Assembly (NCBI RefSeq): GCF_007827465.1
Contig: NZ_VISL01000001.1
Span: 191,001-255,000 of the forward strand
Source of the DNA: Dokdonia sp. Hel_I_53
GTDB lineage: Bacteria; Bacteroidota; Bacteroidia; Flavobacteriales; Flavobacteriaceae
Length of the DNA: 64,000 nucleotides
Direction of reading: 5' to 3'
The notes beneath the pieces are model-generated. The model did no database searches. It saw nothing but the letters and a program-made list of their open reading frames with translations, and had not been told where the DNA came from. Below are positions 1,413-59,588 of the stretch, in pieces. The position numbers and the translations under genes were made by a program. Each line of letters starts with the position of its first letter. Within the stretch, counting starts at the first letter, position 1.

Positions 1413-2135
1413 TTATTTTGTTTTGTCATATTTACTATTCCATATAGCTTTATTGAAGTTCTTTCCTAGTGCAAAGCCATAAAAAAGAACCACCGCAGCA
1501 ATGGATTTAAACATAAAGAAAAAAACCATTACATCCTGTGATGTATCTTGATTTTTCGTAAAAAGGCCATCTGGAACGAACCAAGTTGCAAAAAGGCTCA
1601 AAACAATCATTGTTATAATAAGATTTTCAAAAGATTTAAATGACCAGGCCCAGCACTTACGTAACGGGCTTAAATCATTACCCCATTTGTGAATCAAATA
1701 ATAATACCCATTACCTATAGGAGCAAAAAGTAGCGGATCATCTGATTTTTCTAGCACAAACATTTTTGAAGGGGCTATTATCTTATAGCCATTTAGTTCA
1801 GTAGCGTGTTTGTTTTCTAAGTATTTAATTTCATCCAGAACACCTTGAGGGTACTTACCTTTAAAGTATTTTGTGTCTAAAAAACGAAGCCTATAATCCA
1901 CACAAATCTTTTTAATTTGGTTAATGTGGAAGATTCGATCGGTAGCAAGCAAGTCAAAATTAAATACATTATAACCGATAGTTGATGAATCTTTTAATGT
2001 GTTTAAAATTCCACTTTCGCGAAAGCGGTCATTTTCAAAAACCTGAAGTACTTGGTCTAGAATATTTTGTTCTGTTTCGCTCTTACGACGTTCATGAAGT
2101 AGTTTTTCATGAATGTTTGTTCTAGATAATAGCAT
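1413..2135 (-). CDS. Uncharacterised protein with two C-terminal membrane helices
   Basis: I do not recognise a family. From the ATG at 2135 the protein has about 240 residues: a polar, mostly helical N-terminal region of about 160 residues, then two hydrophobic segments near the end (ENLIITMIVLSLFATWF and a second around VVLFYGFALG). The frame stays open to an earlier ATG at 2165, but that adds only the low-information stretch MFCIVYLKQK; the later ATG has the A-rich upstream sequence usual here. It is the first gene of a two-gene operon with the DUF2007-like gene. One copy of the dispersed palindrome lies inside it and encodes RFRESGI. Confidence 0.55.
   Translation of the reverse strand: MLLSRTNIHEKLLHERRKSETEQNILDQVLQVFENDRFRESGILNTLKDSSTIGYNVFNFDLLATDRIFHINQIKKICVDYRLRFLDTKYFKGKYPQGVLDEIKYLENKHATELNGYKIIAPSKMFVLEKSDDPLLFAPIGNGYYYLIHKWGNDLSPLRKCWAWSFKSFENLIITMIVLSLFATWFVPDGLFTKNQDTSQDVMVFFFMFKSIAAVVLFYGFALGKNFNKAIWNSKYDKTK
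2012..2027. repeat. Dispersed palindrome copy (one outer mismatch)
   Basis: CACTTTCGCGAAAGCG differs from the perfect 16-mer CGCTTTCGCGAAAGCG at one outer base. It is inside the uncharacterised gene and is read as RFRES on the minus strand. Confidence 0.85.
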
Positions 2136-2267
2136 TTTTTGTTTTAAATATACAATACAAAACATTGAGAGTCAACGTGCAACTTTCAATTTTTATGAAT
2201 ACTTACTAGATGAAAAGTGTTAGAATAGCATAATAATGGGCAGAAATAAAACAATGTGCTTTAAAAC

Positions 2268-2306
2268 ATAACATCCCAATGTTCAATATGAACATTGGGA
2301 TGTTAT
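2268..2306 (-). terminator. Long hairpin downstream of pheT
   Basis: A perfect 18-bp inverted repeat with a three-base ATA loop begins 15 bases beyond the pheT stop. On the minus strand it is followed only by a short, interrupted T run, so it may be a terminator or a 3' stabilising hairpin. The neighbouring gene at 1413-2135 lies further downstream on the same strand. Confidence 0.7.
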
Positions 2307-2320
2307 GGAAAATCTAATGT

Positions 2321-9342: not shown

Positions 9343-11445
9343 ATGAAACACAGCTGGTTATTTATTGTTTTAGTATTCGCTTTCGCGAAAGCGTATTCTC
9401 AAGAAATCTCTCCACAGACAAGTATTGTGGATGTGCAAAAGATCGCAGCAACTTTGGAGCTAAACGTAGAAAATGAAACTATTTCTGGTAAAGTAAACAT
9501 GGTTTTTAAAATGCTAGAAAACGCAAATGAGGTTTCCCTAGACGCTAAAAATATGCAATTGAAGGGGAAAACAGCACCTTCACAAATACGAGTAACAGCA
9601 ACTAAAGACAATATTACATTCTTTGATAATTTTAAAAAAGGAAAGAGATATGAAGTGTTCTTCTCTTACGAAGCCACTCCTAGGCAAGCGGCTTATTTTG
9701 TAAAGAATGAAACTAAAACTCAATTTTGGACACAAGGTCAAGGAAAGTACACCTCTCACTGGTTGCCCAGTATAGATGATATGAATGATAAAATAGAATT
9801 TGATATTTCGCTTCGTCATTCCACTGAAGAAGTAGCAGTTTCTAATGGTAGATTTAGTCAAGAGCGCGGGCCTAATGGAAGTATACTCTCTACTTTTGAT
9901 ATGGAAAAACCTATCTCTAGTTATCTGGTTGGACTCGTACTAGGGGAGTACTTACACGAGAGTGAAATAAGTAGTTCTGGAATTCCTTTAGAGTATTATT
10001 ATTACCCAGAAGATTCTCTAAAAGTCGCCTCTACTTACAAGTATTCGAAACAAATTTTCAATTTTTTAGAATCTGAAATAGGAGTGCCATTTCCATTTGC
10101 TACTTATAAACAAGTACCGGTCAAGGATTTCCTATATGCGGGAATGGAGAACGCAAGTTGTACCATCTTTTCAGATAATTTTATGGTCGATTCTATTGGG
10201 TTTACAGATCGCAACTACGTGAATGTGAATGCTCACGAGCTAGCCCATCAATGGTTTGGAGATTTAGTAACAGAAACAAAAAGTGAGCATCATTGGTTAC
10301 AAGAGGGGTTTGCTACTTACTATGCCTTGCTGGCAGAAAGAGAAATTTTTGGGGATGACTATTTTTATTTCAAGCTTTTTGAGACTGCAGAACAGTTACG
10401 TGAATTAAGCGATCAAGGAAAAGGTGAAAAGTTATTGTCTGCAGGTGGTAGTAGTTTGACATATTATCAAAAAGGGGCTTGGGCCTTACATATCTTAAAA
10501 GAAAAGGTAGGGGAGGACGCTTTCGCGAAAGCGGTTCAGTCTTATTTAAAAAAATATGCATATCAAAACGTTACTACTACAGAGTTTATGGCTGAGGTAG
10601 CTTCCTTTACAGAAATAGACCTTTCAGATTTTAAAAAAAATTGGCTTAATCAATCTGCATTTCAATCAGAAGACGCTTTGCAAGCCCTTAAAAAAAGCAA
10701 ATTTATGCAGCAGTATTTTGAATTACAATCTGCTAGGATGAGACCGCTTTCTTCAAAATATATTCAACTTATGGATGCGATAGAAAGTTGTAATGATTAT
10801 TTAGGTCAAGAAGCTATTTATCAAATTTCAGACGAGTCCACACAGTCCGTATTGCCCATTTATAAAAAAGCAATAGAAAGCTCAAACATTTATATACGTC
10901 AGGGAATCGCTACCTCTTTGAATGAGGTTCCTGAACAATTAGAAAAGGATTTTCATAAATTACTTAGTGATTCTAGTTACGTTACAAAGGAACAAGCCTT
11001 TTTTAAACTTTGGGTTTATTATAAGCAACGTAACAATGTCAAAGCGCAACATAAACTTCTTGATTTTATGGGTGCAACCTATGGTTTTGCAGATGGAAAT
11101 ATTAGAACTCTGTGGCTTACGTTATCACTAGCTACGCCTAACTTTAAACCCCATGAATCTGTTACCCGTTATCAAGAATTAATAGATTACACTGACCCAG
11201 CAAAGCCTTATCAATTAAGAGAAAATGCATTTAGATACTTAAATCAATTACAGTCTTTTGAAAAACAGAGCCTCAAGAATCTTGTAGAAGCAAGCGTTCA
11301 TCATGTATGGCGGTTTAGAGAAAATTCAAGAAAACTATTGAGTAGTGTTCTAAGCAATACAGAAAATCAGCATTTGCTTGAAAGTATAAAAAAGGATCTT
11401 ACAGGGAAAGAACTCGATTATTTACAGAAAATCAAAGCATTGTGA
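9343..11445 (+). CDS. M1 family zinc aminopeptidase, exported
   Basis: A 700-residue peptidase of the gluzincin M1 family, which removes N-terminal residues from peptides. A signal peptide (MKHSWLFIVLVFAFAKAYS) points to the periplasm or outside. The zinc site is HELAH at 298-302 with the third ligand Glu321 in LQEGFATYY, and the substrate-anchoring exopeptidase motif appears as AGMENA. The C-terminal 280 residues are helical as in the family. Two perfect copies of the dispersed palindrome lie in the gene: one inside the signal peptide (AFAKA) and one at AFAKAVQ. It is monocistronic and converges with the gene at 11467. The substrate is unknown. Confidence 0.93.
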   Translation: MKHSWLFIVLVFAFAKAYSQEISPQTSIVDVQKIAATLELNVENETISGKVNMVFKMLENANEVSLDAKNMQLKGKTAPSQIRVTATKDNITFFDNFKKGKRYEVFFSYEATPRQAAYFVKNETKTQFWTQGQGKYTSHWLPSIDDMNDKIEFDISLRHSTEEVAVSNGRFSQERGPNGSILSTFDMEKPISSYLVGLVLGEYLHESEISSSGIPLEYYYYPEDSLKVASTYKYSKQIFNFLESEIGVPFPFATYKQVPVKDFLYAGMENASCTIFSDNFMVDSIGFTDRNYVNVNAHELAHQWFGDLVTETKSEHHWLQEGFATYYALLAEREIFGDDYFYFKLFETAEQLRELSDQGKGEKLLSAGGSSLTYYQKGAWALHILKEKVGEDAFAKAVQSYLKKYAYQNVTTTEFMAEVASFTEIDLSDFKKNWLNQSAFQSEDALQALKKSKFMQQYFELQSARMRPLSSKYIQLMDAIESCNDYLGQEAIYQISDESTQSVLPIYKKAIESSNIYIRQGIATSLNEVPEQLEKDFHKLLSDSSYVTKEQAFFKLWVYYKQRNNVKAQHKLLDFMGATYGFADGNIRTLWLTLSLATPNFKPHESVTRYQELIDYTDPAKPYQLRENAFRYLNQLQSFEKQSLKNLVEASVHHVWRFRENSRKLLSSVLSNTENQHLLESIKKDLTGKELDYLQKIKAL
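9378..9393. repeat. Dispersed palindrome, perfect 16-mer
   Basis: CGCTTTCGCGAAAGCG lies in the signal-peptide codons of the M1 peptidase and is read as AFAKA. Confidence 0.95.
10518..10533. repeat. Dispersed palindrome, perfect 16-mer
   Basis: This is the second copy in the M1 peptidase gene, read as AFAKA within the C-terminal helical region. Confidence 0.95.
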
Positions 11446-16053: not shown

Positions 16054-19011
16054 ATGTTCTTTAAAAAACTACTCTTTTTTGGATTAGTCTCTTGTTCGTT
16101 ATCAGTCTTTGGTCAAGAGTACTTTCCTGCTAACGGTGGTGTAAAATCTACAAATGAAAATTTCACGGTTTTTACAAACGCCACCATTCACACATCACCA
16201 TCAGAAATTATTAAAAAAGGCACCCTTGTGGTTCAAGACGGAAAGGTAACCGCTGTTGGGAGATCAGTTGAGATTCCGGACAATGCGTTACGTATAGATC
16301 TTAATGGTAAACACATATACTCTTCATTTATAGACATCTATACAGACTTCGGTATTAAAGCACCAAAAAGAGAATCTGGAGGTGGCCGTGGATCTCAATA
16401 CGATAATACCCGCGAAGGCCATTATTGGAATGACCATATACGTGCAGAGCAGAATGGGTACGATGATTTTAAGTATGATACAAAAAAAGCAAGTGAGTTT
16501 CTCGAGGCTGGATTTGGAGTGGTAGCAACGCATCAACACGATGGTATTGCACGTGGTACAGGTGCTTTAATAGCACTTAATAACGATGGTACAAAAGCGC
16601 AACGCATTTTAGAAGATCAATTTGGTCAATATTTTTCGTTTGATAAAAGTAATACCTCTAACCAGTCATACCCTACTTCAAAAATGGGAGCAACGGCTTT
16701 ATTACGTCAGGTACAGCATGATTTAGACTGGTATGAGAAAGGAAATATAGAGACGAAAGATCTTTCTTTAGAAGCGCTTTCGCGAAATAAAGCACTCCCT
16801 CAATTCTTTGAAGGCGAAGGGCTTTATGATGACTTACGAATTGATCGCATTGGAGATGAATTTGATATCAATTACGTAATCGTGGCTGGAGGAGATGAAT
16901 ATAAAAGAATAGGTGAAGTTAAAGAAATGAATAGAACTTTGATTTTACCACTCAAATTTCCTGATGCCTTCGATATGGAAAATCCATATGCAGCAGAGTA
17001 TGTAGCACTCTCAGACATGAAGCATTGGAATCAAGCACCTACAAACCCAAAAGCGTTGCAGGACGCTGGAGTAACTTTTGCGCTTACTACCTTTTCACAC
17101 AAATCTCCAAAAGATTTTAAAAAGCATTTAATGAAAGCCATAAAATATGGTCTATCAAAAGAAAAAGCTCTCGAAGCGCTTACTACAATTCCTGCCAGAC
17201 TAATTGGACAATCCGGAAAAGTAGGAACGTTGACGAAAGGTGCTTGGGCTAATTTTATGATAACTTCAGATGAAATTTTCGAAGAGGATACAAAACTTTA
17301 CGAGCATTGGATTCAAGGGAAAAAGAAGGTTTTTAAAGATATGACCACAGTTGATATTGATGGCTCTTATGCTATTGAAATAGATGGCATGTCCTATACC
17401 TTAGAAATTGAAAATTCTACAGAAAAACCTAAGGCAACTCTCAAAAAAGGATCAGAAAAAATTGCTAGTGAGTTTTCTTATAAAGATGATTGGATGACGC
17501 TTGTTTTTGCGAAAGCAGAAGGAAAATTTGTAAGGCTTATTGCTCGTGCCGCTGCAGAGGGACTTAATGGGAAAGCTGTACTAGCAGATGGAAGTGAAAA
17601 ATCATTTTCTTCAACAAAAACAGCACTAAAAAGTAAAGAAGATAAGAAAGGCAAAGAGGATAAAGAAACAGTAGACATTATGCCATTAACTTTCCCTAAC
17701 ATGGCATTTGGGTACCAGTCACAACCTACTTCTCAAACTATTTTAATTACAAACGCGACCGTTTGGACTAATGAAGCAGAAGGCATTTTAAAAAATACAG
17801 ATGTACTTATTAAAAACGGAAAAATAAGCGCGATAGGTAAAGGCCTAAAAGCAAATGGTGCGATGCAAGTAGATGGTACTGGAAAGCACCTCACTTCTGG
17901 AATTGTAGATGAGCATTCACATATTGCAGCTTTTGCCATAAATGAAGCGGGACATAATTCTACGGCAGAGGTACGCATGTATGATGTTGTAAATCCAGAT
18001 GATTCTGATATTTATAGAAATCTTGCGGGAGGTGTAACTTCAATACAATTGTTGCATGGATCTGCAAATCCTATTGGAGGGCAATCTGCTGTGATGAAAC
18101 TTAAATGGGGAGCAGCTATAGACGAAATGGTTCTTAAAGATAAAAAACGTATCAAATTTGCACTAGGTGAGAACGTTAAACAAGCTAACTGGAATAGTTA
18201 TTCTCGATTCCCACAAACAAGAATGGGAGTGGAGCAGGTATTTGTAGATTATTTTACGAGAGCTCGTGAATATGAGAAGAAGAAAAATAGTGGACAGCCT
18301 TATCGTATTGATGAGGAAATGGAAACTATAGTAGAAATTTTGAATATGGATCGCTTAATTTCATGCCACTCTTATGTTCAGAGTGAGATAAATATGACGA
18401 TGAAAGTTGCAGAGCAATTTGGCTTCAACGTTGATACGTTTACACATATTCTTGAAGGATATAAAGTAGCCGATAAAATGGCAGCTCATGGAGCCGGTGG
18501 TTCTACCTTCTCAGATTGGTGGGCTTATAAGTATGAGGTAAATGATGCAATACCTTACAATGCTGCAATAATGCATAATGCTGGAGTTACGGTAGCTATA
18601 AATTCTGATGATGGGGAAATGTCAAGACGTTTGAATCAAGAAGCCGCTAAAATCCATAAATATGGAGGAGTATCAGAAGAAGATGTTTGGAAAATGGTCA
18701 CTTTAAATCCTGCAAAACTTTTAAAAATGGATGATAAAGTAGGAAGTATTAAAGTTGGGAAAGATGGTGATGTAGTTGTTTGGTCAGACCATCCTTTAAG
18801 TATTAAAGCAAGGGCAGAAAAAACAATCATAGAAGGAGCAGTATACTTTGATATAGAAAAGGATAAATCACTACGCAAAACAGTTGCACAAGAGAAAGCT
18901 CAACTTACTGCAATGATGATTGCAGCAAAGAATAAAGGCTTGAAAACAACTCCAGCAAAAAAGAAAGAAAAGCAACGTATGCATTGTGATACAGAAAAAA
19001 CACTATACTAA
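16054..19011 (+). CDS. Double-domain exported amidohydrolase
   Basis: A 985-residue exported protein (signal peptide ending SVFGQ) with two amidohydrolase-like halves. The C-terminal half (about 560-970) has the usual metal site: His621 and His623 in DEHSH, His772 in SCHSYV, His798 in FTHIL and Asp852 in NSDDGE, so it is probably a working imidazolonepropionase/dipeptidase-like hydrolase. The N-terminal half (about 25-440) keeps the composite domain and the closing PARLIGQSGKVGTLTKG motif, but has IDIYTDFG where HxH should be, so it is probably inactive. The substrate is unknown. A partial palindrome copy lies at 16775. The following gene starts two bases after this stop and belongs to the same family. 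Confidence 0.88.
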   Translation: MFFKKLLFFGLVSCSLSVFGQEYFPANGGVKSTNENFTVFTNATIHTSPSEIIKKGTLVVQDGKVTAVGRSVEIPDNALRIDLNGKHIYSSFIDIYTDFGIKAPKRESGGGRGSQYDNTREGHYWNDHIRAEQNGYDDFKYDTKKASEFLEAGFGVVATHQHDGIARGTGALIALNNDGTKAQRILEDQFGQYFSFDKSNTSNQSYPTSKMGATALLRQVQHDLDWYEKGNIETKDLSLEALSRNKALPQFFEGEGLYDDLRIDRIGDEFDINYVIVAGGDEYKRIGEVKEMNRTLILPLKFPDAFDMENPYAAEYVALSDMKHWNQAPTNPKALQDAGVTFALTTFSHKSPKDFKKHLMKAIKYGLSKEKALEALTTIPARLIGQSGKVGTLTKGAWANFMITSDEIFEEDTKLYEHWIQGKKKVFKDMTTVDIDGSYAIEIDGMSYTLEIENSTEKPKATLKKGSEKIASEFSYKDDWMTLVFAKAEGKFVRLIARAAAEGLNGKAVLADGSEKSFSSTKTALKSKEDKKGKEDKETVDIMPLTFPNMAFGYQSQPTSQTILITNATVWTNEAEGILKNTDVLIKNGKISAIGKGLKANGAMQVDGTGKHLTSGIVDEHSHIAAFAINEAGHNSTAEVRMYDVVNPDDSDIYRNLAGGVTSIQLLHGSANPIGGQSAVMKLKWGAAIDEMVLKDKKRIKFALGENVKQANWNSYSRFPQTRMGVEQVFVDYFTRAREYEKKKNSGQPYRIDEEMETIVEILNMDRLISCHSYVQSEINMTMKVAEQFGFNVDTFTHILEGYKVADKMAAHGAGGSTFSDWWAYKYEVNDAIPYNAAIMHNAGVTVAINSDDGEMSRRLNQEAAKIHKYGGVSEEDVWKMVTLNPAKLLKMDDKVGSIKVGKDGDVVVWSDHPLSIKARAEKTIIEGAVYFDIEKDKSLRKTVAQEKAQLTAMMIAAKNKGLKTTPAKKKEKQRMHCDTEKTLY
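16775..16787. repeat. Partial palindrome copy
   Basis: CGCTTTCGCGAAA keeps the left arm and centre and has lost the right arm. It lies in the amidohydrolase gene, in the third reading frame (LSRNK). Confidence 0.6.
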
Positions 19012-19012
19012 T

Positions 19013-20299
19013 ATGAAAGCATTATATAGAATACTCGTAGCTGTAGTTTTCATTTTTGGAACAACAGCTTATGGACAACAAACCCCTGCAGATACCCAAG
19101 CTACTGCTTACACTATAACAGGGGCCACAGCACACTTAGGTAACGGTGATGTTATCAAAAATGCAACAATTATTTTTGAAAATGGAAAAATCACTTCTGT
19201 AGAAAGTAATAGTACTGCTACAAAAGGAGAGGTGATCAACGCGCAAGGAAAGCATGTTTACCCTGGATTTATCGCGACAAACACTACATTAGGCCTCGTA
19301 GAGGTAGGTGCTGTAAGGCAATCTAATGATGATGATGAGATAGGAGATTTTATACCTCACGTAAGAGGTATCATTGCGTATAACGCAGAGTCAAAAGTTG
19401 TAGAAAGTATGCGCCCTAACGGAGTTCTATTAGCGCAAATACGTCCAGTTGGAGGTATGATTTCAGGATCTTCATCTGTCGTGCAACTTGATGCTTGGAA
19501 TTGGGAAGACGCTGCTTATAAAACAGACGAAGGTATATTTCTTGACTGGCCTAATACAATGACAAGAGGGCGCTGGTGGCTAGGCGAGGAGCCCGGTTTT
19601 AAGCCTAGCAAGAAATATGCAGAAGAGGTACAAACTGTAAAAAATTTCTTTTCAAATGCTAAGGCATACCAAGGAGGCAGTAGGATTACAAACTTACCTT
19701 ATCAGGCTATGAAAGGCGTTTTTGATGGTACTCAAAAGGTATATATTTCTGCAAATGATCAACGACAGATTTTAGATGTTATCGCTTTCGCGAAAGCGTA
19801 TGATCTTAAAAACATTGTATTAGTTGGTGGGTATCAAGCTTATAAAGTAGCCAGCGAACTCGTAGCTGCAAATATTCCAGTGATTTTACAAAGAGTTCAG
19901 GGACTACCATCCATGGAAGATCATGACTATGATTTACCTTATAGAATGCCAAAGTTACTTATGGACGCAGGTGTCACTGTAGCTTTAGGTTATGATGCCG
20001 AATACTGGCAGGTACGTAACCTTCCTTTTTATGCGGGACAAGTAACGCAATTTGGAATGAGTGATGAAGATGCCCTTAAAATGATTACAGAGAATCCAGC
20101 AAAAATTATGGGAATTTCTAATACAACAGGAACTTTAGAAGTAGGCAAAGATGCAACACTTTTTATAAGTGATGGGAATGCATTAGACATGCGTACAAAC
20201 CAACTTTCCAGAGCTTTTATACAAGGACGCGATATTAGCCTAGAGTCTCATCAGACAAGACTTTGGAAACGATATGCAGAGAAATACAATAATGATTAA
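19013..20299 (+). CDS. Exported amidohydrolase-like protein lacking the HxH metal motif
   Basis: A 428-residue exported protein from the ATG at 19013, which follows the previous stop by one base; the 27 bases upstream in frame overlap the preceding gene. A signal peptide (ending TTAYGQ) is followed by a composite domain and barrel typical of amidohydrolases, ending in NPAKIMGISNTTGTLEVGKD. At the first metal motif it reads GFIATNTTLG instead of a HxH, like the inactive half of the upstream protein. It may be a non-catalytic partner forming a complex with the 985-residue enzyme; this is inference from operon structure and missing ligands. One perfect palindrome copy is read as AFAKAYD. Confidence 0.85.
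   Translation: MKALYRILVAVVFIFGTTAYGQQTPADTQATAYTITGATAHLGNGDVIKNATIIFENGKITSVESNSTATKGEVINAQGKHVYPGFIATNTTLGLVEVGAVRQSNDDDEIGDFIPHVRGIIAYNAESKVVESMRPNGVLLAQIRPVGGMISGSSSVVQLDAWNWEDAAYKTDEGIFLDWPNTMTRGRWWLGEEPGFKPSKKYAEEVQTVKNFFSNAKAYQGGSRITNLPYQAMKGVFDGTQKVYISANDQRQILDVIAFAKAYDLKNIVLVGGYQAYKVASELVAANIPVILQRVQGLPSMEDHDYDLPYRMPKLLMDAGVTVALGYDAEYWQVRNLPFYAGQVTQFGMSDEDALKMITENPAKIMGISNTTGTLEVGKDATLFISDGNALDMRTNQLSRAFIQGRDISLESHQTRLWKRYAEKYNND
19783..19798. repeat. Dispersed palindrome, perfect 16-mer
   Basis: CGCTTTCGCGAAAGCG lies inside the second amidohydrolase gene, read as AFAKA. Confidence 0.95.
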
Positions 20300-22831: not shown

Positions 22832-22847
22832 CGCTTTCGCGAAAGCG
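22832..22847. repeat. Dispersed palindrome, perfect 16-mer
   Basis: This copy lies between the TonB receptor stop and the lipoprotein start, so in the polycistronic mRNA it could form a small hairpin between the two genes. Confidence 0.95.
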
Positions 22848-25291: not shown

Positions 25292-25618
25292 TTAACAAAA
25301 TGGAGGGCCTCGGTTAGTTGTAGATGTAGGTATTTCTATGTAACCTTTTGTTGGAAGGTAAAGAGTTGCTCTGAAGAACTGTTGCGGTAAAAGTGATTCC
25401 GTTTTCGCGAAAGCGTATACCCCTACTTTTACCATCTGCATGTCACCAAGGTCACAATCTAATGAAGAGGCATGTACATGTGTATCTGAGGTAGCACATG
25501 TTTCATAGTGTTGATGGTCACTAACTGCATGTGCAAAATTTACTACAGCAGGTAACAAAAAGGCAATTAGCACGAAAAGTGCTATACATCTATTAATTAT
25601 ATGCTTGCTGTTATTCAA
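25292..25618 (-). CDS. Small His/Cys-rich exported protein
   Basis: A 108-residue protein with an N-terminal export helix (CIALFVLIAFLLPAVVNFAHA). The mature part has a cluster of possible metal ligands (SDHQHYETC, DTHVHASSLDC) and ends NRGPPFC. It begins with TTG at 25618, two bases after the stop of the preceding gene, so it is probably co-transcribed with it. The TonB receptor follows 39 bases later. Such peptides are regular companions of metal receptors in Flavobacteriaceae; a metal-binding or sensing role is inferred. A near-perfect palindrome copy near the 3' part is read as AFAKT. Confidence 0.7.
   Translation of the reverse strand: MNNSKHIINRCIALFVLIAFLLPAVVNFAHAVSDHQHYETCATSDTHVHASSLDCDLGDMQMVKVGVYAFAKTESLLPQQFFRATLYLPTKGYIEIPTSTTNRGPPFC
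25400..25415. repeat. Dispersed palindrome copy (one mismatch)
   Basis: CGTTTTCGCGAAAGCG differs at one base from the perfect form. It lies in the His-rich peptide gene. Confidence 0.85.
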
Positions 25619-29674: not shown

Positions 29675-31170
<1,496 letters not shown>

Positions 31171-34142: not shown

Positions 34143-34158
34143 AGCTTTCGCGAAAGCG
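34143..34158. repeat. Dispersed palindrome copy (one outer mismatch)
   Basis: AGCTTTCGCGAAAGCG lies in the leader of the HD-domain gene, 21 bases before the start codon; as RNA it would form a short hairpin. Confidence 0.9.
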
Positions 34159-37862: not shown

Positions 37863-37863
37863 T

Positions 37864-38654: not shown

Positions 38655-38670
38655 CGCTTTCGCGAAAGTG
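38655..38670. repeat. Dispersed palindrome copy (one mismatch)
   Basis: CGCTTTCGCGAAAGTG lies just after lpxA; a more decayed relative (TTTCGCGCAAGCGC) lies at about 38751-38764. Confidence 0.85.
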
Positions 38671-42809: not shown

Positions 42810-42888
42810 AAAGTATTTGCACAATATAAAAAGTTATAATTTATATCTTTCTATACACCATTTTATATTAATAGTAAACAGAATAATA

Positions 42889-44922
42889 TTGCAAAAACAC
42901 ACACTACTTTTACTAATTGGCGCTGCTATACTGTCATTAGGAGTAGCTGGGTTTCAATATTTTTACAACACAAGATCTGTAACAAAACGCAATAAAGTGT
43001 ATGCTTTGTTGCGTTTTTTTTCAATTTTTTGCTTACTTACGTTACTTATAAATCCAAGTTATAAGCAGGTTTCTTATTTTACAGAAAAGCCTACACTTGC
43101 TATTGCAATTGACAATTCATCGAGTATTAAATATTTGGACTATGATCTTAAAGCGGTTCATGCGGTAGATCGCTTTCGCGAAAGCGAATCTCTTTCAAAA
43201 CTTTTTGATCTAGATTTTTATAGTTTTGGAGAAGAATTCAAAACTTTAGATTCATTAACTTTTAAGGATAGACAAACGAGTATATCTGCTTCCTTAAATG
43301 GTCTTGAGGCTATTTATGGAAATGCTATCGCACCTGTAGTTTTGATGACAGATGGCAATCAAACCTATGGAGAAGATTTTAAGTATACTACTCAAAACTA
43401 TAAGCAGCAAGTATATCCAATTATTTTAGGCGATACTTTGGTGTATGAAGATCTAAGAATAGGACAAGTAAATGTAAATCGCTACGCCTATATAAATAAT
43501 AAATTTCCCGTTGAGATATTTACAACGTATACAGGAAATAAAGATACAAGAACAAGGCTCTCCATTAAATCTGGATCAACAACTCTTTTTTCTAAAACTT
43601 TAAACTTTAATCAAGACAATACTTCTCAGGTAATAAACGCCCTTATTCCGGCTAGTACAGTGGGTGTAAAACAATTTAAGATTAGCTTATCACCCTTAAT
43701 AGAAGAAAAGAATACTAATAATAATTTTAAAAATTTTGCAGTAGAAATTATTGATCAAAAAACAAATATACTACTCATTAGTTCTATTGTACATCCCGAT
43801 ATAGGGATGCTTAAAAAAAGTATAGAAAGTAATAGATTACGCACTTTAGAAATCAATAAACCTAGTAAGAGTATTTCAAAAATTAACGATTATGAGCTAG
43901 TAATCCTCTATCAACCAGATGCAAGTTTTAAAAGAGTTTTTGAAGAACTTAAAAGCTTAAATAAAAATGCGATAACGATTACGGGAGCTGCTACAGACTG
44001 GAGGTCATTAAATAGTTTTCAGAGTACTGTAAAGCAAGAAATTACAGGCCAAGAGGAGGAAGTACAGGGGAAGCTGAACATCAATTTTTCCTCATTTGTA
44101 ATACCAGATTTAGATTTTTCAAACCTACCACCACTTACTACTGCATTTGGAGAAGTAACATTTACAACTAACATAGATGTTGCCGTGACCCAACAAATAG
44201 GATCTTTGCAAACAGCTAACCCACTTATTGTAACTACAGATCAGAATGGAAGGAGAGGTGTTTATGTGTTAGGAGAGGGGTTATGGAGGTGGCGCGCACA
44301 GAGTTTTATCGACCATAAAAGTTTTGAAAAGTTTGATGGTTTTATTGATAATTTAGTTCAGTATGCTGCCTCAAACACTAAAAAAAGTAGACTAACTTTA
44401 GAGTACGAACGCTTCTATTACGGTAATGGTGAAGTGAGATTATATGCCCAATATTTTGATAAAAACTATAATTTTAATGAAAGAGCACGCCTAACTATTA
44501 ATGTAGTTAATCAAGAGACTAAGGTGTCTTCAACTATACCATTACTTCTTAAGGGGAATACCTATCTTGCAGATCTAAATAACCTAAATGCTGGAGAATA
44601 TTCTTTTACAGTTTCTGTAGAAGGTCAAGGATTATCACGCTCAGGAACATTCACAATCATACCATTTGAAATTGAGCAACAATTTCTCAATGCAAATGTA
44701 ACATCGCTTAGTACTTTAGCGTCTAACACTAAGAGTACACTATATTCAATAGATGAAGTAGATCAATTAATAAGCGCGTTACTTAATGATAAGCGCTATA
44801 GGCCTGTCCAAAAAAGCGTTGAAAATATTGTACCTTTAATTGATTGGAGATGGCTGCTTGCATTACTAGCTATCTTTCTTACAGCAGAATGGCTTATGCG
44901 TAAGTATAATGGACTTACTTAA
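42889..44922 (+). CDS. Membrane protein with VWA-like domain
   Basis: About 677 residues from the TTG at 42889, which gives MQKHTLLLLIGAAILS, a typical start for this group; the frame also opens at a TTG 72 bases earlier. Two transmembrane helices at the N-terminus are followed by a von Willebrand A-like domain with DNSSS (metal-site DxSxS form) and TDGNQTYG. A large beta-rich extracytoplasmic part follows, and a last helix LLALLAIFLTAEWLMRK is at the end. Similar Bacteroidota proteins are known only as hypothetical. It precedes the SPFH gene by 22 bases. One perfect palindrome copy is read as RFRES. Confidence 0.72.
   Translation: MQKHTLLLLIGAAILSLGVAGFQYFYNTRSVTKRNKVYALLRFFSIFCLLTLLINPSYKQVSYFTEKPTLAIAIDNSSSIKYLDYDLKAVHAVDRFRESESLSKLFDLDFYSFGEEFKTLDSLTFKDRQTSISASLNGLEAIYGNAIAPVVLMTDGNQTYGEDFKYTTQNYKQQVYPIILGDTLVYEDLRIGQVNVNRYAYINNKFPVEIFTTYTGNKDTRTRLSIKSGSTTLFSKTLNFNQDNTSQVINALIPASTVGVKQFKISLSPLIEEKNTNNNFKNFAVEIIDQKTNILLISSIVHPDIGMLKKSIESNRLRTLEINKPSKSISKINDYELVILYQPDASFKRVFEELKSLNKNAITITGAATDWRSLNSFQSTVKQEITGQEEEVQGKLNINFSSFVIPDLDFSNLPPLTTAFGEVTFTTNIDVAVTQQIGSLQTANPLIVTTDQNGRRGVYVLGEGLWRWRAQSFIDHKSFEKFDGFIDNLVQYAASNTKKSRLTLEYERFYYGNGEVRLYAQYFDKNYNFNERARLTINVVNQETKVSSTIPLLLKGNTYLADLNNLNAGEYSFTVSVEGQGLSRSGTFTIIPFEIEQQFLNANVTSLSTLASNTKSTLYSIDEVDQLISALLNDKRYRPVQKSVENIVPLIDWRWLLALLAIFLTAEWLMRKYNGLT
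43171..43186. repeat. Dispersed palindrome, perfect 16-mer
   Basis: This copy lies in the VWA-like domain of the membrane protein gene, just after the DNSSS motif, read as RFRES. Confidence 0.95.
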
Positions 44923-45797: not shown

Positions 45798-45813
45798 TGC
45801 TTTCGCGAAAGCG
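45798..45813. repeat. Dispersed palindrome copy (one outer mismatch)
   Basis: TGCTTTCGCGAAAGCG lies between the SPFH gene and the terminator hairpin. Confidence 0.9.
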
Positions 45814-49605: not shown

Positions 49606-49621
49606 TGCTTTCGCGAAAGCA
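49606..49621. repeat. Dispersed palindrome copy (14-bp core intact)
   Basis: The core GCTTTCGCGAAAGC (49607-49620) is perfect; the two outer bases differ. It lies upstream of uspA and downstream of the four-gene operon. Confidence 0.85.
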
Positions 49622-52492: not shown

Positions 52493-52505
52493 CGCTTTCG
52501 CGAAA
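52493..52505. repeat. Partial palindrome copy
   Basis: CGCTTTCGCGAAA has lost its right outer arm, 145 bases before the GH3 start. Confidence 0.6.
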
Positions 52506-52649
52506 AATTTAAACATCTATTTTTCTAATTATTAAGAGTTTATGTGGCTTTTTTTCGAAATCGTTATCGGAAAAGACCTATAATAACATAGGATAGCATG
52601 CAGATTTCTAGTAATTTGCAATGTAGCATTTTATCAAACATCATAAATT

Positions 52650-54941
52650 ATGAAAAGATCATCAATAGCAGGTCAAGAGAGATTTATATTTCTAGTACTT
52701 TTTGTACTTGGTGTGTTTACTGTAGTGGGCCAAACTTCACAAACAGCATTGCAAAAAGACATCTCTGAAAAAGTTACTGCATTACTTTTAAAAATGACTT
52801 TAGAAGAGAAAATAGGTCAAATGAATCAGTACAATGGGTTTTACAATGTGACAGGACCCGCACCTAAGGATGGTGATGCTGCACGTAAATATGACTTATT
52901 GAGAAAAGGCTATGTGGGATCGATGCTTAATGTACGTGGGGTAGAAAATGTCAGAGCAGTGCAAAAAATTGCCGTAGAAGAAAGCAGGTTAGGTATACCC
53001 CTAATTATTGGGTTTGACGTAATACACGGGTATAAAACTATTGCACCCATTCCACTAGCCGAAGCCGCAAGCTGGGATATGGATGCCATACAAAAAAGCT
53101 CAGAAATTGCTGCAGCAGAGGCTGCAGCCTCTGGAATTAACTGGACATTTGCACCTATGGTAGATATTTCTCGAGATGCAAGATGGGGCCGCGTGATGGA
53201 AGGAGCAGGTGAAGACCCTTTTTTAGGAAGCGATATTGCGGCAGCTCGAGTGCGAGGCTTCCAAGGAGATGACTTAAGTGATCCACTTACTATTGCAGCT
53301 TGTGCAAAACACTGGGCAGCTTACGGATTTGCAGAAGCTGGAAGAGACTATAATAGGTCTGATGTAGGGACGAGTACATTGTTTAATGTTGTATTTCCAC
53401 CATTCCAAGCAGCCAAAGAAGCGGGTGTGAAAACTTTCATGAATTCTTTCAATACACTCAATGGTATACCTGCAACAGGAGATCAGTTTTTACAAAGAGA
53501 AATCCTAAAGGATAAATGGGGTTTTGATGGATTTGTTGTATCAGATTGGGGATCTATAAGAGAAATGATTGCACACGGTTTTGCAAAAGACGGAAAAGAA
53601 GCAGCCCGCAAAGCAGTAATTGCAGGTTCAGATATGGATATGGAGTCTGATTTGTATGTTACAAAACTGGCGATGCTCGTCCAAGAAGGAAAAGTTGATG
53701 AATCTTTAATTACAGATGCAGCACGTAGAATCTTAACAGTGAAATATGAATTAGGTTTATTTGATGATCCATACCGTTACTGTGATGAAACGCGAGAAAA
53801 AGAAATAATTTACAAAGAAGAGTATCAAGATGTTGTACTTGACATGGCTCGTAAATCTATTGTTCTTTTAAAGAATGAAAATAATTTACTTCCATTAAAA
53901 AAGAGTGGTCAAAAAATTGCGCTAATAGGAGCCTTAGCAGCCGATAAAAGTAGTCCACTCGGAGGCTGGAGAATCGCTTCAGATGATGGTACGGCGGTGT
54001 CTGTAAAAGAAGGAATGGAAGCATATACAGGGAACTCATTGATGTATGCTAAAGGTGCAGATGTAGTAATTGGAGACGCAACATTTATTAGAGAGCTTAC
54101 CATAAATGAAACAGATACGACCGCTTTCGCGAAAGCGGTATTTACCGCAAAAAATGCAGATGTGGTTGTGATGGTACTTGGAGAACATGGTTATATGTCT
54201 GGAGAGGGTAGAAGTAGGGCACAACTAGATTTGCCTGGCGTACAACAGGAATTATTAGAAGCTGTATATGCCGTAAATAAAAATATTGTGTTAGTATTAA
54301 ACAATGGAAGACCACTTGCCATTGATTGGGCCGCAGAACACATCCCATCCATCGTGGAAGGATGGCAGTTAGGGTCGCAAGCAGGTAACGCTATTGCAGA
54401 AGTACTATATGGCGATTACAACCCATCCGGAAAATTACCAATGTCTTTTCCAAGAAGTGTGGGGCAAGTGCCTATTTATTATAATCATAAAAGTACGGGT
54501 AGGCCTGAAGATGCTGGTGATAATCTTGTATTCTGGTCACATTATGGAGATGAGAGTAACGACCCGTTATACGTTTTTGGACACGGATTGAGTTATACTA
54601 CATTTGGTTACGATACCCTGAAGGTTGAAGCTAACGAAAATGGAGCAAATGTAACCGTTTGGGTTTCTAATGGTGGTGATGTAACTGGTAAAGAAGTAGT
54701 ACAACTTTATATTCAAGATCCTTTCGCCAGTGTCACTAGACCGGTGAGGGAACTTAAAGGTTATGAGCTTATTACCCTTGAGCCCAACGAGAGAAAAAAA
54801 ATAACCTTTAAACTTACGGGTAAGGAACTAGGATTTTACGACAATCAAGGAAATTGGTTAGTGGAGCCTGGAGATTACAATATTTTTGTAGGTAGTAGTT
54901 CTGCAACAAAGCTTAAAGGAAGTTTTGTGCTAGCTGAATAA
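52650..54941 (+). CDS. bglX: Glycoside hydrolase family 3 beta-glucosidase
   Basis: A 763-residue exported hydrolase (signal peptide, hydrophobic segment FIFLVLFVLGVFTVVGQ). The GH3 N-terminal barrel (about 50-390) has FAPMVDISRDARWGRVME and the nucleophile Asp299 in FVVSDWGSI; the C-terminal domain (about 410-640) has VLLKNENNLLPL and GEHGYMSGEGRSRAQL. A fibronectin III-like domain (about 675-755) closes the protein. This order matches BglX, a periplasmic beta-glucosidase releasing glucose from short glucans. A perfect palindrome copy is read as AFAKAVF. It is monocistronic and converges with cbpM. Confidence 0.93.
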   Translation: MKRSSIAGQERFIFLVLFVLGVFTVVGQTSQTALQKDISEKVTALLLKMTLEEKIGQMNQYNGFYNVTGPAPKDGDAARKYDLLRKGYVGSMLNVRGVENVRAVQKIAVEESRLGIPLIIGFDVIHGYKTIAPIPLAEAASWDMDAIQKSSEIAAAEAAASGINWTFAPMVDISRDARWGRVMEGAGEDPFLGSDIAAARVRGFQGDDLSDPLTIAACAKHWAAYGFAEAGRDYNRSDVGTSTLFNVVFPPFQAAKEAGVKTFMNSFNTLNGIPATGDQFLQREILKDKWGFDGFVVSDWGSIREMIAHGFAKDGKEAARKAVIAGSDMDMESDLYVTKLAMLVQEGKVDESLITDAARRILTVKYELGLFDDPYRYCDETREKEIIYKEEYQDVVLDMARKSIVLLKNENNLLPLKKSGQKIALIGALAADKSSPLGGWRIASDDGTAVSVKEGMEAYTGNSLMYAKGADVVIGDATFIRELTINETDTTAFAKAVFTAKNADVVVMVLGEHGYMSGEGRSRAQLDLPGVQQELLEAVYAVNKNIVLVLNNGRPLAIDWAAEHIPSIVEGWQLGSQAGNAIAEVLYGDYNPSGKLPMSFPRSVGQVPIYYNHKSTGRPEDAGDNLVFWSHYGDESNDPLYVFGHGLSYTTFGYDTLKVEANENGANVTVWVSNGGDVTGKEVVQLYIQDPFASVTRPVRELKGYELITLEPNERKKITFKLTGKELGFYDNQGNWLVEPGDYNIFVGSSSATKLKGSFVLAE
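54122..54137. repeat. Dispersed palindrome, perfect 16-mer (18-bp with flanks)
   Basis: This copy is perfect and extends to 18 bases (54121-54138). It lies in the GH3 gene and is read as AFAKAV. Confidence 0.95.
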
Positions 54942-56135: not shown

Positions 56136-56509
56136 TTGAAGAAATAATTTTTCTATTAAATTATGATATACAGTATCTGTAGTTATCTAATTACTAAATT
56201 ATTAAAATAAGGCTGAATGTATAGAAATTTAGAAAAATTTACCATAGTGTTTAGTAAAACTTAGGAAGTAGTAAGGTGCTTTTATTATTGATAAATTTTC
56301 ACGAATAGAAAACTACTTTAGTTGATACTCTAAACGAAAGCTGACATCAAAAAACTGTCAAAACCTCTCGAAATTAAGCTGATAATGCATAAATTAAAAT
56401 ACAAAATACACTTACTTTATCATTTACAGATACAAAAGAAACTAAAACATGGGAGGTCTACTTTAAGTACATAAAAACGAAGTAATTGCTTGTAGCCACT
56501 GCGCCGTAT
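56136..56509. other. Intergenic region upstream of cbpA
   Basis: These 374 bases are AT-rich and hold no recognised gene, hairpin or consensus -7 box. I see nothing else in it. Confidence 0.6.
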
Positions 56510-56980: not shown

Positions 56981-57128
56981 TGTTAAAGTTTATTGCTGAA
57001 AGGTTTAGTTATTCCTTGCATTGATAAAGATACATTTATAGAGCATACTCGATTGTAATATATAAACTGATTATTATAGAATATAGATTTTAGTATTGAG
57101 TGTTTTTATTGTAGAATTAAGGCTTATA

Positions 57129-57142
57129 TTTCCGCGAAAGCG
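57129..57142. repeat. Decayed palindrome copy
   Basis: TTTCCGCGAAAGCG resembles the palindrome with two left-arm changes. It lies about 90 bases before the helicase start. Confidence 0.45.
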
Positions 57143-57227
57143 AACGTACTATTATTTTAAAAAAAGGAAAAATAATAGTAATCAAGCTCATAAATTTTGC
57201 ACTAAGTCCGTAATTTAGATCCCTGCT

Positions 57228-59567
57228 ATGGATTCAAAATTAGAAGTATATATTGAGGGGCTTAATGAAGCCCAGCGAGCGCCAACTTTGCATAAAGACG
57301 GAGCGCTTATTGTTATTGCTGGTGCTGGTTCTGGGAAGACACGCGTGCTTACAATGCGTATTGCATACCTAATGTCTCAAGGGGTTGATGCGTTTAATAT
57401 TTTATCACTCACCTTTACAAATAAGGCAGCACGCGAAATGAAAAAACGTATTGCAGGTATTGTAGGTAGTAGTGAGGCAAAAAATTTATGGATGGGAACT
57501 TTTCACTCCATCTTTGCAAAAATCTTACGCTTTGAAGCAGATAAACTTGGGTATCCTTCTAACTTTACTATCTATGACACCCAAGATTCTCAGCGACTTA
57601 TAAGTGCTATTATTAAGGAGATGCAATTGGATAAAGATGTGTATAAGTATAAACAAATTCAAAGTAGAATCTCCTCTTTTAAGAATAGCCTCATCACTGT
57701 TCGTGCTTACATGAACAACCCAGAACTCATAGAGGCAGATGCGATGGCAAAACGACCTAGGGTAGGAGAGATCTACGCAGAGTATGTTGATCGTTGTTTC
57801 AAAGCAGGAGCTATGGATTTTGACGATTTGTTATTACGCACCAATGAACTGCTCAATCGTTTTCCAGAGGTATTAAATAAATATCAAAATAGATTTAAAT
57901 ACATACTAGTTGATGAGTATCAAGATACTAACCATAGTCAGTATCTCATTGTCAAGGCACTCTCAGATAAATTTCAAAATATTTGTGTGGTAGGAGATGA
58001 CTCGCAGAGCATCTATGCCTTTAGAGGGGCAAACATTAATAACATTCTTAATTTCCAAAAAGATTATGAGAATGTGGCAATGTATCGTCTAGAGCAAAAT
58101 TACCGTTCTTCAAAAAATATTGTTGAAGCAGCAAATAGTGTCATAGAAAAAAATAAAACTCGACTCGATAAAACCGTATGGACAGAAAATGAAGATGGTG
58201 GGCAGATTATCGTGCATCGCTCTCCAACAGATGGAGAAGAAGGTCGCTATGTAGCAAGCTCTATTTTTGAAAATAGAATGAACCATCAAGCAAAAAATGG
58301 AGATTTTGCCATTCTATATCGTACAAATGCACAGTCTCGTGCAATGGAAGACGCCTTGCGTAAGCGAGATATTCCATACCGTATCTACGGAGGCCTCTCT
58401 TTTTATCAGCGTAAAGAAATAAAAGATGTTCTCGGTTATTTGAGAGTACTGGTTAACCCAAAAGATGAAGAAGCGCTCAAAAGAGTGATTAACTATCCTG
58501 CACGTGGAATTGGAGGTACTACGATAGATAAACTCACGGTGGCCGCAAAGCATTACAATCGCTCCATTTTTGAAGTCATGGAAAAAATTGAGCAGCTAGG
58601 CAGCTCGATGAACATTAATCGTGGCACACAGACAAAGCTCAAAAACTTTGTCACTATGATTCAAAGCTTCCAAATTCTTAATGAGGAGAACGATGCTTTT
58701 ACGGTAGCAGAGACGGTTGCCAAGAAGACAGGTCTTCTACAAGAGCTTAAAAAAGATGGTACCCCAGAAGGAATTGCACGTATAGAAAATATTGAAGAAC
58801 TACTCAACGGTATACGTGACTTTGTTGAGGAGCAAAAAGAACTAGCAGATACCACTGGGTCTCTAGCAGAGTTTCTGGAAGATGTTGCATTGGCTACCTC
58901 AATGGATAATGATACTGGAGATGATGATCGTGTTGCATTAATGACCATTCACCTAGCAAAAGGATTAGAATTTCCATTTGTATACATTGTGGGAATGGAA
59001 GAGGATCTTTTTCCTTCAGGTATGAGCATGAACACACGTAGTGAACTAGAAGAGGAGCGTCGCTTATTTTATGTTGCACTTACCAGAGCAGAGAAGCAGG
59101 CATATCTTACCTATACAGAATCACGTTACCGTTGGGGCAAACTAGTTGATGCAGAACCTAGCCGCTTTATAGAGGAGATAGACGATAAGTACTTAGACTA
59201 TCAAACGCCTATGAACAGTTATCGCTATAAACCGTTGATTGATGCAGATATTTTTGGCGATATAGATAAGAGTAAATTACGTCTCAAAAAGCCTATAAGC
59301 GGTACGCCGCCTAGAGTGGGCAACCCTACATCTGATCAACTTAAAAAATTGCGTAAAATAAGACCTTCAAATAGTGATGCTCCTATGCCTTCACTTGCTG
59401 GTGACCTAGCTTCTGGAACTGTTGTGGAGCATATAAGATTTGGAAAAGGAATCGTAGTAGGTCTAGAAGGTAAAGACCAAGATCAAAAAGCTGAAATTAA
59501 TTTTGAAAATGGCGGACTTAAAAAGTTGCTTCTCCGTTTTGCAAAGCTCAAGATTGTGGACTCGTAA
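57228..59567 (+). CDS. UvrD/PcrA-family ATP-dependent DNA helicase
   Basis: A 779-residue superfamily 1A 3'-5' helicase used in excision repair and in removing RecA. Motif I GAGSGKTRV (32-40), motif Ia LSLTFTNKAAREMKKR, motif II VDEYQDTN, motif III VGDDSQSIYAFRGA, motif V TIHLAKGLEFPFVYIVG, and motif VI FYVALTRAEK are all present. A C-terminal Tudor-like segment (EHIRFGKGIVVGLEG) is typical of PcrA. Flanked by palindrome relics. Confidence 0.95.
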   Translation: MDSKLEVYIEGLNEAQRAPTLHKDGALIVIAGAGSGKTRVLTMRIAYLMSQGVDAFNILSLTFTNKAAREMKKRIAGIVGSSEAKNLWMGTFHSIFAKILRFEADKLGYPSNFTIYDTQDSQRLISAIIKEMQLDKDVYKYKQIQSRISSFKNSLITVRAYMNNPELIEADAMAKRPRVGEIYAEYVDRCFKAGAMDFDDLLLRTNELLNRFPEVLNKYQNRFKYILVDEYQDTNHSQYLIVKALSDKFQNICVVGDDSQSIYAFRGANINNILNFQKDYENVAMYRLEQNYRSSKNIVEAANSVIEKNKTRLDKTVWTENEDGGQIIVHRSPTDGEEGRYVASSIFENRMNHQAKNGDFAILYRTNAQSRAMEDALRKRDIPYRIYGGLSFYQRKEIKDVLGYLRVLVNPKDEEALKRVINYPARGIGGTTIDKLTVAAKHYNRSIFEVMEKIEQLGSSMNINRGTQTKLKNFVTMIQSFQILNEENDAFTVAETVAKKTGLLQELKKDGTPEGIARIENIEELLNGIRDFVEEQKELADTTGSLAEFLEDVALATSMDNDTGDDDRVALMTIHLAKGLEFPFVYIVGMEEDLFPSGMSMNTRSELEEERRLFYVALTRAEKQAYLTYTESRYRWGKLVDAEPSRFIEEIDDKYLDYQTPMNSYRYKPLIDADIFGDIDKSKLRLKKPISGTPPRVGNPTSDQLKKLRKIRPSNSDAPMPSLAGDLASGTVVEHIRFGKGIVVGLEGKDQDQKAEINFENGGLKKLLLRFAKLKIVDS

Positions 59568-59576
59568 AAAGATTAT

Positions 59577-59588
59577 GCTTTCGCGAAA
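59577..59588. repeat. Partial palindrome copy
   Basis: GCTTTCGCGAAA lies nine bases after the helicase stop; the right outer arm is missing. Confidence 0.55.

Follow-up and report, generated by a model that had tools for sequence, protein, structure and literature searches.

What is the meaning of a 16-bp palindrome that recurs across the window analysed here, a 64-kb stretch of the genome of Dokdonia sp. Hel_I_53? A sequence-only reading of this DNA claimed at least 13 copies, and the phenomenon turns out to be larger: 16 sites lie within three mismatches of the 16-mer, 7 of them exact, where 0.06 are expected, and none of 100 dinucleotide shuffles of the window contains more than one such site. 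The 10-bp core TTTCGCGAAA is present in all 16. Nine sites fall within mechanically called open reading frames (ORFs), one of these ORFs being doubtful, and seven lie between ORFs, in agreement with the originally described mixture of genic, intergenic and leader copies.

Sites in the window

All seven exact copies were found where they had been reported. Six are inside ORFs, namely 9378..9393 and 10518..10533 in ORF 9343-11445(+), 19783..19798 in 18986-20299(+), 29773..29788 in 29675-30754(-), 43171..43186 in 42817-44922(+) and 54122..54137 in 52650-54941(+); the seventh, 22832..22847, lies between genes, 5 bp beyond the stop codon of ORF 22853-25252(-). The 9378..9393 copy, which reads AFAKA near the N-terminus, has a counterpart at the corresponding coordinates in the Dokdonia loci L009, L010 and L012 and, approximately, in L013. 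In genera that do not carry the label, the place of the 10518..10533 copy is occupied by, for example, GCTTTTAAAAAAGC.

Among the six copies described as near-exact, five differ from the 16-mer by one mismatch: 2012..2027 inside ORF 1413-2165(-), 25400..25415 in the short, doubtful ORF 25292-25618(-), 34143..34158 between divergent genes, 38655..38670 located 8 bp downstream of the stop codon of ORF 37864-38646(+), and 45798..45813 between tandem genes. The sixth, the intergenic 49606..49621, has two, symmetric mismatches (TGC...GCA). The four partial copies fared less uniformly. Those at 16775..16790, inside ORF 16054-19011(+), and at 52493..52508, between divergent genes, consist of the core and one arm, with three mismatches each; the one placed at 59577 actually spans 59576..59591, 8 bp downstream of the stop codon of ORF 57228-59567(+), and combines the core with weak arms, again with three mismatches; the last, at 57129, is no copy, given that the sequence there, TTTCCGCGAAAGCGAA, carries an additional C and does not contain the core.

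Abundance in the genome and spread across taxa

The count across the complete genome, set beforehand as a refuting test, gave 452 exact copies in 2.93 Mb and none for the reversed pattern, and the comparison with a Markov expectation likewise left the claim intact, with 130 occurrences of the core against approximately 0.5 expected by base composition or by Markov models of order 1-2 in a 459-kb unmasked sample of the same genome. Each of the 20 sampled 20-kb stretches of this genome contains the core (2-10 occurrences), and no ori/ter pattern was apparent in the sampled stretches, in which ori and ter were not located. Of another ten stretches of this genome, six were picked for lacking exact 16-mers; these enter the own-genome set for the after-stop profile, the runs of shared positions and the flank and information profile, and are kept out of the core count, the genic and intergenic densities, the gaps below 1 kb and 500 bp for this genome and g210, the mismatch counts and the coefficient of variation (CV) of the spacing.

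In the samples searched, the motif is restricted to three genera. Exact copies number 138-711 per genome in all 17 Dokdonia genomes searched; all 23 genomes of genus g11, which is probably Nonlabens, are loaded with the motif, as is the one genome of genus g210, with 46% GC. The remaining family genomes (391 of 397) contain 0-21 copies of a 12-mer, and the samples of the order and the phylum at most 6 copies of a 14-mer. Larger genomes do not have more copies (rho 0.00, n=12).

Architecture of the signal

The core is embedded in a longer symmetric signal, with CGC/GCG arms and, 5' of the site on each strand, approximately 20 bp that are C-poor and T/G-rich; this flank composition is common to the three genera, albeit weak in g210, and the information content of the signal is 27-41 bits. 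There are 130 perfect and 29 one-mismatch cores (19 control palindromes average 16.7), and 61 perfect and 42 single-mismatch copies of the whole 16-mer, with the variation at the outermost position in 34 of these 42. An extended hairpin formed from the two flanks was considered and rejected, there being no covariation in four sets. The T periodicity of the flanks in g11 is about as strong at 3 bp as at 10.5 bp and is not decisive.

Origin, maintenance and spacing of the sites

At the aligned positions in unlabelled genera, the core is present in 0 of 233 alignments, of which 171 are gap-free and 62 have a gap near the site, these counts being non-independent, with the 40 printed examples coming from two sites. 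The gap-free alignments indicate that the sites mostly arise by mutation, that is, by substitution. Once present, the motif is apparently maintained by selection: of 313 comparisons among labelled genomes with an identity of 85% or less, 190 retain the core, and from genome G016 to genome G008 it is retained in 8 of 8 cases at 75% flank identity, with 0.75 expected.

The sites also keep their distance from each other. Gaps below 1 kb are rarer than chance, with 12 against 30.1 expected in the Dokdonia genome and 2 against 27.4 in G281, a genome of g11; in the latter, the spacing is over-regular, with a CV of 0.45 compared to a random mean of 0.94. The variance-to-mean ratio of 20-kb counts is 0.19. 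For g210, the deficit of gaps below 500 bp (1 against 3.4 expected) is not significant. The density of sites between genes exceeds that within genes in two of the three genera (1.26 against 0.16 per kb in the Dokdonia genome, 1.41 against 0.165 in G281), with little enrichment in g210 (0.29 against 0.20 per kb, 4 of 42 sites being intergenic).

An uptake label?

So what kind of function could account for a signal with these properties? By analogy with known systems, we give approximately one chance in two to the possibility that the palindrome is the core of a symmetric 'self-DNA' label of about 50 bp that works like the USS and DUS uptake sequences, an explanation that was absent from the three candidates of the sequence-only reading, which itself settled on no mechanism, and that fits more of the measured properties. 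Under this scenario, a putative DNA receptor belonging to the uptake machinery at the cell surface would bind TTTCGCGAAA along with the CGC/GCG arms and the T/G-rich flanks, either as a symmetric dimer or via two half-site contacts; label-bearing DNA would be preferentially taken up and recombined in natural transformation, so that site-bearing alleles would spread and about one site per few kilobases would be maintained.

This reading is supported, in the first place, by the great excess of perfect over one-mismatch cores, as in USS and DUS, for which the cited part of PMC1626085 states as an oddity that perfect copies are many more than singly mismatched ones. Further support comes from the substitution origin, the conservation, the over-regular spacing, the intergenic enrichment and the shared flanks, and may come from the copy number, whose independence of genome size would suit the depletion in newly acquired DNA and the bias towards core over accessory genes that typify uptake sequences. 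In the cited portions of the literature, USS of Pasteurellaceae resemble the motif in copy number, strong consensus, the paucity of single mismatches, compositional flank tracts, origin by mutation (PMC1626085), over-regular spacing, noncoding preference, clade-wide sharing and accumulation by most prophages (PMC1626085, PMC6776037). However, the core of USS has 9 bp, is not palindromic and is accompanied by AT-rich tracts on one side, whereas the motif described here is palindromic over 10-16 bp and has C-poor, T/G-rich sequence to either side. The printed USS and DUS are non-palindromic and occur near once per kb (PMC1626085, as cited), which counts against the uptake reading, in contrast to the 0.20-0.29 cores per kb in hosts from Bacteroidota; for a label of the USS/DUS kind, both the palindromic form and the host phylum are unusual. 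The resemblance to DUS of Neisseriaceae lies in high conservation, spacing linked to fragment length and the marking of horizontally acquired islands (PMC2397512 and PMC7371117, in the parts cited), but DUS are non-palindromic and lack flanking motifs. Moreover, many recent DUS copies are argued, in the cited part of PMC2397512, to derive from recombination rather than point mutation, another point against the uptake reading.

The mobile elements also bear on this question. The motif is present in two phage contigs with structural-gene matches, the phage densities being biased upward by the choice of stretches for containing a copy, but two isolated Nonlabens phages have no cores within their first 20 kb; this difference supports an uptake label by comparison with Pasteurellaceae, in which, according to the relevant portion of PMC6776037, almost all prophages accumulate USS whereas large, likely lytic phages are USS-poor. 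Labelled gene clusters for metal resistance occur in otherwise unlabelled genera, resembling the donor-dialect DUS of neisserial islands (PMC7371117, as excerpted), and this, too, favours an uptake label. The motif-flagged phages and the metal-resistance clusters probably came from labelled hosts, although the direction of transfer of the clusters is one that we infer. A search with the consensus returned no match in plasmid records and four phage records at E about 5.

Some observations point the other way. The uptake reading is weakened by g210, with its little intergenic enrichment, weak flanks and spacing deficit short of significance. Riemerella columbina, treated in PMC7965970 as a member of Flavobacteriaceae, favours its own DNA in transformation, which is in line with an uptake label, but, according to the same paper, its frequent k-mers are A/T-rich only and Flavobacterium johnsoniae was not transformed. 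Among the proteins of the uptake machinery, the DUS receptor ComP is known in Neisseriaceae (PMC3868556, portion cited); ComEC had to be discarded as a discriminator of labelled genomes, being present in all 28 genomes, labelled or not.

Other explanations

The main rival, less likely but still live among the candidates of the sequence-only reading, is a chromosome-organising or nucleoid-occlusion-like site. Here, a dimeric intracellular protein would occupy evenly spaced sites in their hundreds and thereby fold, bridge or protect the chromosome, with resident prophages keeping their sites. The palindrome is of the dimer type and dispersed on the chromosome, as are sites of the Noc/SlmA/MatP type, and its half-sites would be read independently, in keeping with the lack of positive flank covariation; the very regular spacing and the occurrence in every sampled stretch of the genome are what such a protein would entail. 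Noc/SlmA/MatP-type sites, however, come in tens of copies rather than hundreds and are biased with respect to ori and ter, and neither an ori/ter pattern nor a concentration along the chromosome is seen in the sampled stretches. The information content exceeds the approximately 12 bits that would suffice to single out several hundred sites in 3 Mb, and single-mismatch sites are few. Nor was there an extra ParB-like protein: 14 of 15 loaded genomes have one ParB_N match and G010 has two, compared to 1-3 in 13 other genomes that are not loaded, so a ParB/Noc-like paralogue specific to the loaded genomes can be dismissed.

Much less probable is a palindrome of the cyanobacterial HIP1 type, produced by a DNA methyltransferase together with biased mismatch repair, with no binding function under selection. 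The form of the comparison drawn in the sequence-only reading stands, the motif being abundant, palindromic, dispersed in and between genes and mostly made by substitution; furthermore, HIP1 and the alternate HIPs are highly iterated palindromes with mismatches at the edges (PMC4390886, in the part cited), like the variation at the outermost position seen here. HIP1, whose function is unsettled, has several properties of the motif in common, and this weighs against the uptake reading. The link to methylation, also proposed from the CGCG in the motif, has found no support so far. The methyltransferase search comprised two families only, the C5 (PF00145) and the N6/N4 methyltransferases (PF01555), and both are missing from the window genome. 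Of the 15 loaded genomes, 9 lack PF00145, 2 have PF01555 above the cut-off and 8 have neither above it. HIP1, moreover, is 8 bp long and tied to resident methyltransferases, whereas the motif spans 16 bp and has flanks in addition; a methyltransferase target would not be expected to come with 20 conserved bp on either side. Outside the core, TCGCGA shows no enrichment (24 against 28-31).

More improbable still is a Chi-like recombination or repair signal, a palindrome that would act from both directions. The C-depleted, T/G-enriched 5' flank of each strand and the presence of the motif in phage contigs are compatible with this idea, but a length of 16-50 bp is unusual and known Chi sites are short and non-palindromic. 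A transcription terminator or regulator site is very improbable. Of the 83 intergenic or edge sites in the window genome, 30 follow a stop codon by no more than 30 bp, and a CGCTTT-CGCG-AAAGCG hairpin is possible; however, the profile of the 30 after-stop sites lacks a T-run following the hairpin, and the terminator reading of these sites was rejected. About half of the sites (68 of 130) are inside genes, and other samples show less of a preference for the position after a stop: 3 of 33 sites for the RecG regions of nine other Dokdonia and 6 of 26 for G281. A mobile, REP/MITE-like palindromic repeat that inserts its own copies has the least going for it, hundreds of near-identical copies, clusters common to several genera and the alignments with a gap near the site notwithstanding, given that the gap-free majority of alignments largely contradicts insertion and marks most copies as in-place substitutions, that beyond flank composition no sequence is conserved and that close pairs are rarer than chance.

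A possible dialect shared between genera

The 16-mer was not found in the open-licence literature; the string TTTCGCGAAA does occur there, in papers none of which is on flavobacteria by title, and the motif appears unreported in this literature, judged by the titles and abstract openings of the papers listed. If the palindrome is an uptake label, it would represent, as far as this literature shows, an unreported, palindromic uptake dialect in Bacteroidota, and the origin and upkeep of uptake specificity could then be put to the test in marine bacteria that grow in culture; for a chromosome-organising site, hundreds of sites would make up an unusually regular genome ruler. Returning to the uptake label, we tentatively propose, as a scenario with somewhat less than even odds, a dialect of two identical T/G-armed half-sites, spaced near-regularly at about 4 kb, in genera that are not all nearest relatives; either the recognition machinery itself or a common dialect would have passed among marine flavobacteria, leaving its watermark in their phages and in the metal-resistance clusters handed to unlabelled genera. 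On either reading, the motif can readily serve to trace gene flow. Site positions in common with Dokdonia number 2 of 9 in g11, a small sample for weighing common descent against independent gain, and 8 of 13 in g210, with one control match each; in a smaller run, the numbers are 1 of 3 and 7 of 11, and two of the positions shared by g210 in that run belong to the metal cluster, a region that may itself have been transferred from host to host.

The palindrome and its flanks

All seven exact copies of CGCTTTCGCGAAAGCG located in the window by the sequence-only reading are indeed present, and the palindrome is a genome-wide feature, with 452 exact copies on the single 2.93 Mb contig, of which the window occupies 191001-255000, and none of the reversed pattern. 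When up to three mismatches are allowed, the window contains 16 sites (a mean of 0.06 in dinucleotide shuffles), every one of which includes the 10-mer core TTTCGCGAAA; the copy claimed at 57129 has to be dropped because of an extra base. Core matches comprise 130 perfect and 29 one-mismatch instances, against averages of 0.5 and 16.7 for 19 control palindromes.

Flank profiles draw on 172 sites in the window genome, 103 in nine other Dokdonia, 148 in G281 (genus g11) and 49 in G230 (genus g210). Outward from the core, C, G and C (frequencies 0.99, 0.98 and 0.91 in g11) are followed by T-rich positions, and C is depleted over about 20 bp 5' on each strand (about 0.08 versus 0.18 in Dokdonia, similarly in g11, more weakly in g210), such that the whole signal carries 27-41 bits of information. 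Pairing between left and right flanks shows no positive covariation in the window genome (658 pairs versus 672 in shuffles, sd 20), other Dokdonia (240 versus 266, sd 14), G281 (302 versus 329, sd 12) or G230 (188 versus 183, sd 11), so we read the flanks as independent half-sites. The same result in these four sets speaks against an extended hairpin across the flanks.

Placement relative to genes

In a 464 kb sample of the window genome, 68 sites are genic (0.16 per kb) and 62 intergenic (1.26 per kb); the corresponding figures are 30 (0.165) and 26 (1.41) in G281, and 38 (0.20) and 4 (0.29) in G230. In the window-genome sample, the reading phase that yields AFAKA is preferred (39 of the 68 genic sites). 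In several proteins (window 9378; L200, L202, L205, L209, L210) AFAKA is encoded near the N-terminus, at what looks from the sequence like the end of a signal peptide. In the window genome, 30 out of 83 intergenic or edge sites are found no more than 30 bp downstream of a stop codon, and the profile of these 30 shows no T-run after the site; this preference is weaker in other Dokdonia regions and in G281. Over the window and L130-L149, which make up the sample of the window genome, the distance separating an intergenic site from the 3' end of an adjacent gene is 2-16 bp in 27 of 58 cases. At 5059-7095 the window also encodes a T9SS-sorted protein whose match to the extracellular exonuclease ExeM is partial and below the model cut-off.

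Distribution and descent

Exact copies were counted in 59 genomes of the same genus, family and order, the window genome included. Every one of the 17 same-genus genomes has between 138 and 711; among 18 same-family genomes, G027 (genus g11) has 495, G029 has 4 and the other 16 have none, as do all 23 same-order genomes. Across 397 family genomes, a 12-mer is matched at least once in 104, and six are loaded: the window genome (G000, 734), G011 (917), three of g11 (586, 685 and 627) and G230 (445), the rest having 0-21 matches (reversed control, 0-3). All 23 genomes listed for the genus of G027 are loaded, with 297-879 copies. A 14-mer was matched in 22 of 395 genomes of a phylum sample and 20 of 296 of an order sample, none except the window genome exceeding six; since these sets are samples, loaded genera may exist elsewhere. 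Five genomes (G116 and G326 of g96, G091 of g71, G184 of g164, and G082, the RecG of which is identical to that of Planktosalinus lacus) have 11-21 12-mer copies, above background and far below loaded genomes, perhaps as transferred islands. The complete Dokdonia genomes G013 and G017 have fewer exact copies (230 and 248), and in the G017 region L013 the outer arms are altered in seven of ten cores (e.g. TGC...GCA, AGC...GCA), perhaps a drifting variant.

The window RecG shares 85-88% identity with the five loci that bear a Dokdonia title; for the remaining 75 among the matches listed, identity does not exceed 78%. In the RecG tree the window falls inside Dokdonia. There, g210 clusters with Dokdonia at weak support (0.35), and g11 is distant, on a long branch beside G231, which has no 12-mer copies. 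The g11 proteorhodopsin matches PDB chains 9jou/9jov over its full length, and from the organism we infer for these entries g11 is probably Nonlabens. The G008 rhodopsin likewise matches in full the solved sodium pump 4xtl, which we take to be that of D. eikasta.

At aligned orthologous positions (identity at most 85%), the core is kept in 190 of 313 comparisons between genomes that both carry the palindrome with its flanks (the label) and in 0 of 233 with unlabelled genera, 171 of the latter alignments being gap-free and 62 gapped; these comparisons are not independent, the 40 examples inspected all deriving from two sites. Pairwise retention ranges from 8/8 (G016 to G008, 0.75 expected) and 7/8 (G016 to G005) through 2/5 (G000 to G016, 0.27 expected) to 0/3 (G010 to G016; G017 to G003). 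Of 13 genic sites of G230 that could be tested, 8 have a counterpart at the matching position of Dokdonia orthologues (control windows, 1 of 13), which makes it plausible that g210 and Dokdonia share the label by descent, although some of the shared sites lie in a metal cluster that may have been transferred. For G281 the figures are 2 of 9 (control, 1 of 9), and for G281 versus G230 1 of 4 (control, 0); on these small numbers, g11 may have gained the label separately.

Spacing and possible function

Gaps below 1 kb are scarce in the window genome (12 versus 30.1 expected), G281 (2 versus 11.8 in a first sample, 2 versus 27.4 in a 600 kb sample), G230 (2 versus 6.5) and regions around RecG (8 versus 23.8); below 500 bp, the G230 deficit (1 versus 3.4) is not significant. 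In G281, spacing is strikingly regular and surpasses the window genome in this respect. The coefficient of variation of its intervals is 0.45 at a mean of 3.9 kb (random placement, mean 0.94, minimum 0.71 in 2000 runs), compared with 0.64 in the window genome and 0.81 in G1030 (one contig, among the matches listed); for site counts per 20 kb, variance/mean is 0.19 in G281 versus 0.70 in the window genome (random placement of G281 sites, mean 1.00, minimum 0.26 in 5000 runs).

By analogy with the uptake sequences of Pasteurellaceae and Neisseriaceae (USS/DUS), we put at about one half the probability that the palindrome is a DNA-uptake label. The testable features of USS/DUS named in passages from PMC1626085, PMC2397512, PMC6776037 and PMC7371117 are found here, g210 being the weakest case. 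ComEC is present in 28 of 28 genomes, labelled and unlabelled alike, and so does not discriminate. The label differs from USS/DUS in its palindromic form, flanks on two sides, lower density and taxonomic home. The main rival, a chromosome-organising site, accounts equally well for the symmetry and the regular spacing; against it, no extra ParB-like protein was seen, ParB_N matching once in 14 of 15 loaded genomes. A methylation palindrome of the HIP1 type, as in cyanobacteria, is a weakened candidate, PF00145 being found neither in the window genome nor in 9 of 15 loaded genomes and PF01555 scoring above cut-off in 2 of the 15.

Phages and metal-resistance clusters

Exact copies occur in 41 IMG/VR stretches; the seven with GC above 0.5 appear to be chance matches. 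Seven cores lie within the 27.9 kb examined of one viral contig, which has matches to portal, terminase, sheath and baseplate-hub proteins, and four lie within 18.5 kb of a second, where the matches are to portal, major head and tape-measure proteins. Densities across 11 viral contigs run from 0.10 to 0.27 per kb and are inflated by the choice of stretches that contain a copy. At 60 viral sites with GC below 0.5, duplicates kept, C is scarce in the flanks (0.10 versus 0.20). The Nonlabens phages P12024S and P12024L, the host of which may or may not be labelled, have no cores in their first 20 kb.

Runs of copies occur in seven otherwise unlabelled genomes (G118, G254, G127, G376, G029, G141, G142). 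In three of these genomes ten proteins were scanned, and most belong to metal transport or copper functions: P-type ATPases, an RND efflux system together with its outer-membrane and membrane-fusion partners, a multicopper oxidase and an ArsP-like permease. The two exceptions are a TonB receptor and a protein with a carboxypeptidase regulatory domain. Two G230 sites located in such metal genes are matched by sites of the window genome at L133. Palindrome-bearing copper and heavy-metal resistance clusters (L200-L212) are seen in genomes otherwise nearly free of the palindrome. A site pair exactly 933 bp apart, inside an outer-membrane efflux gene, is common to G118, G254, G127 and G141, and a pair at the same distance occurs in G200.
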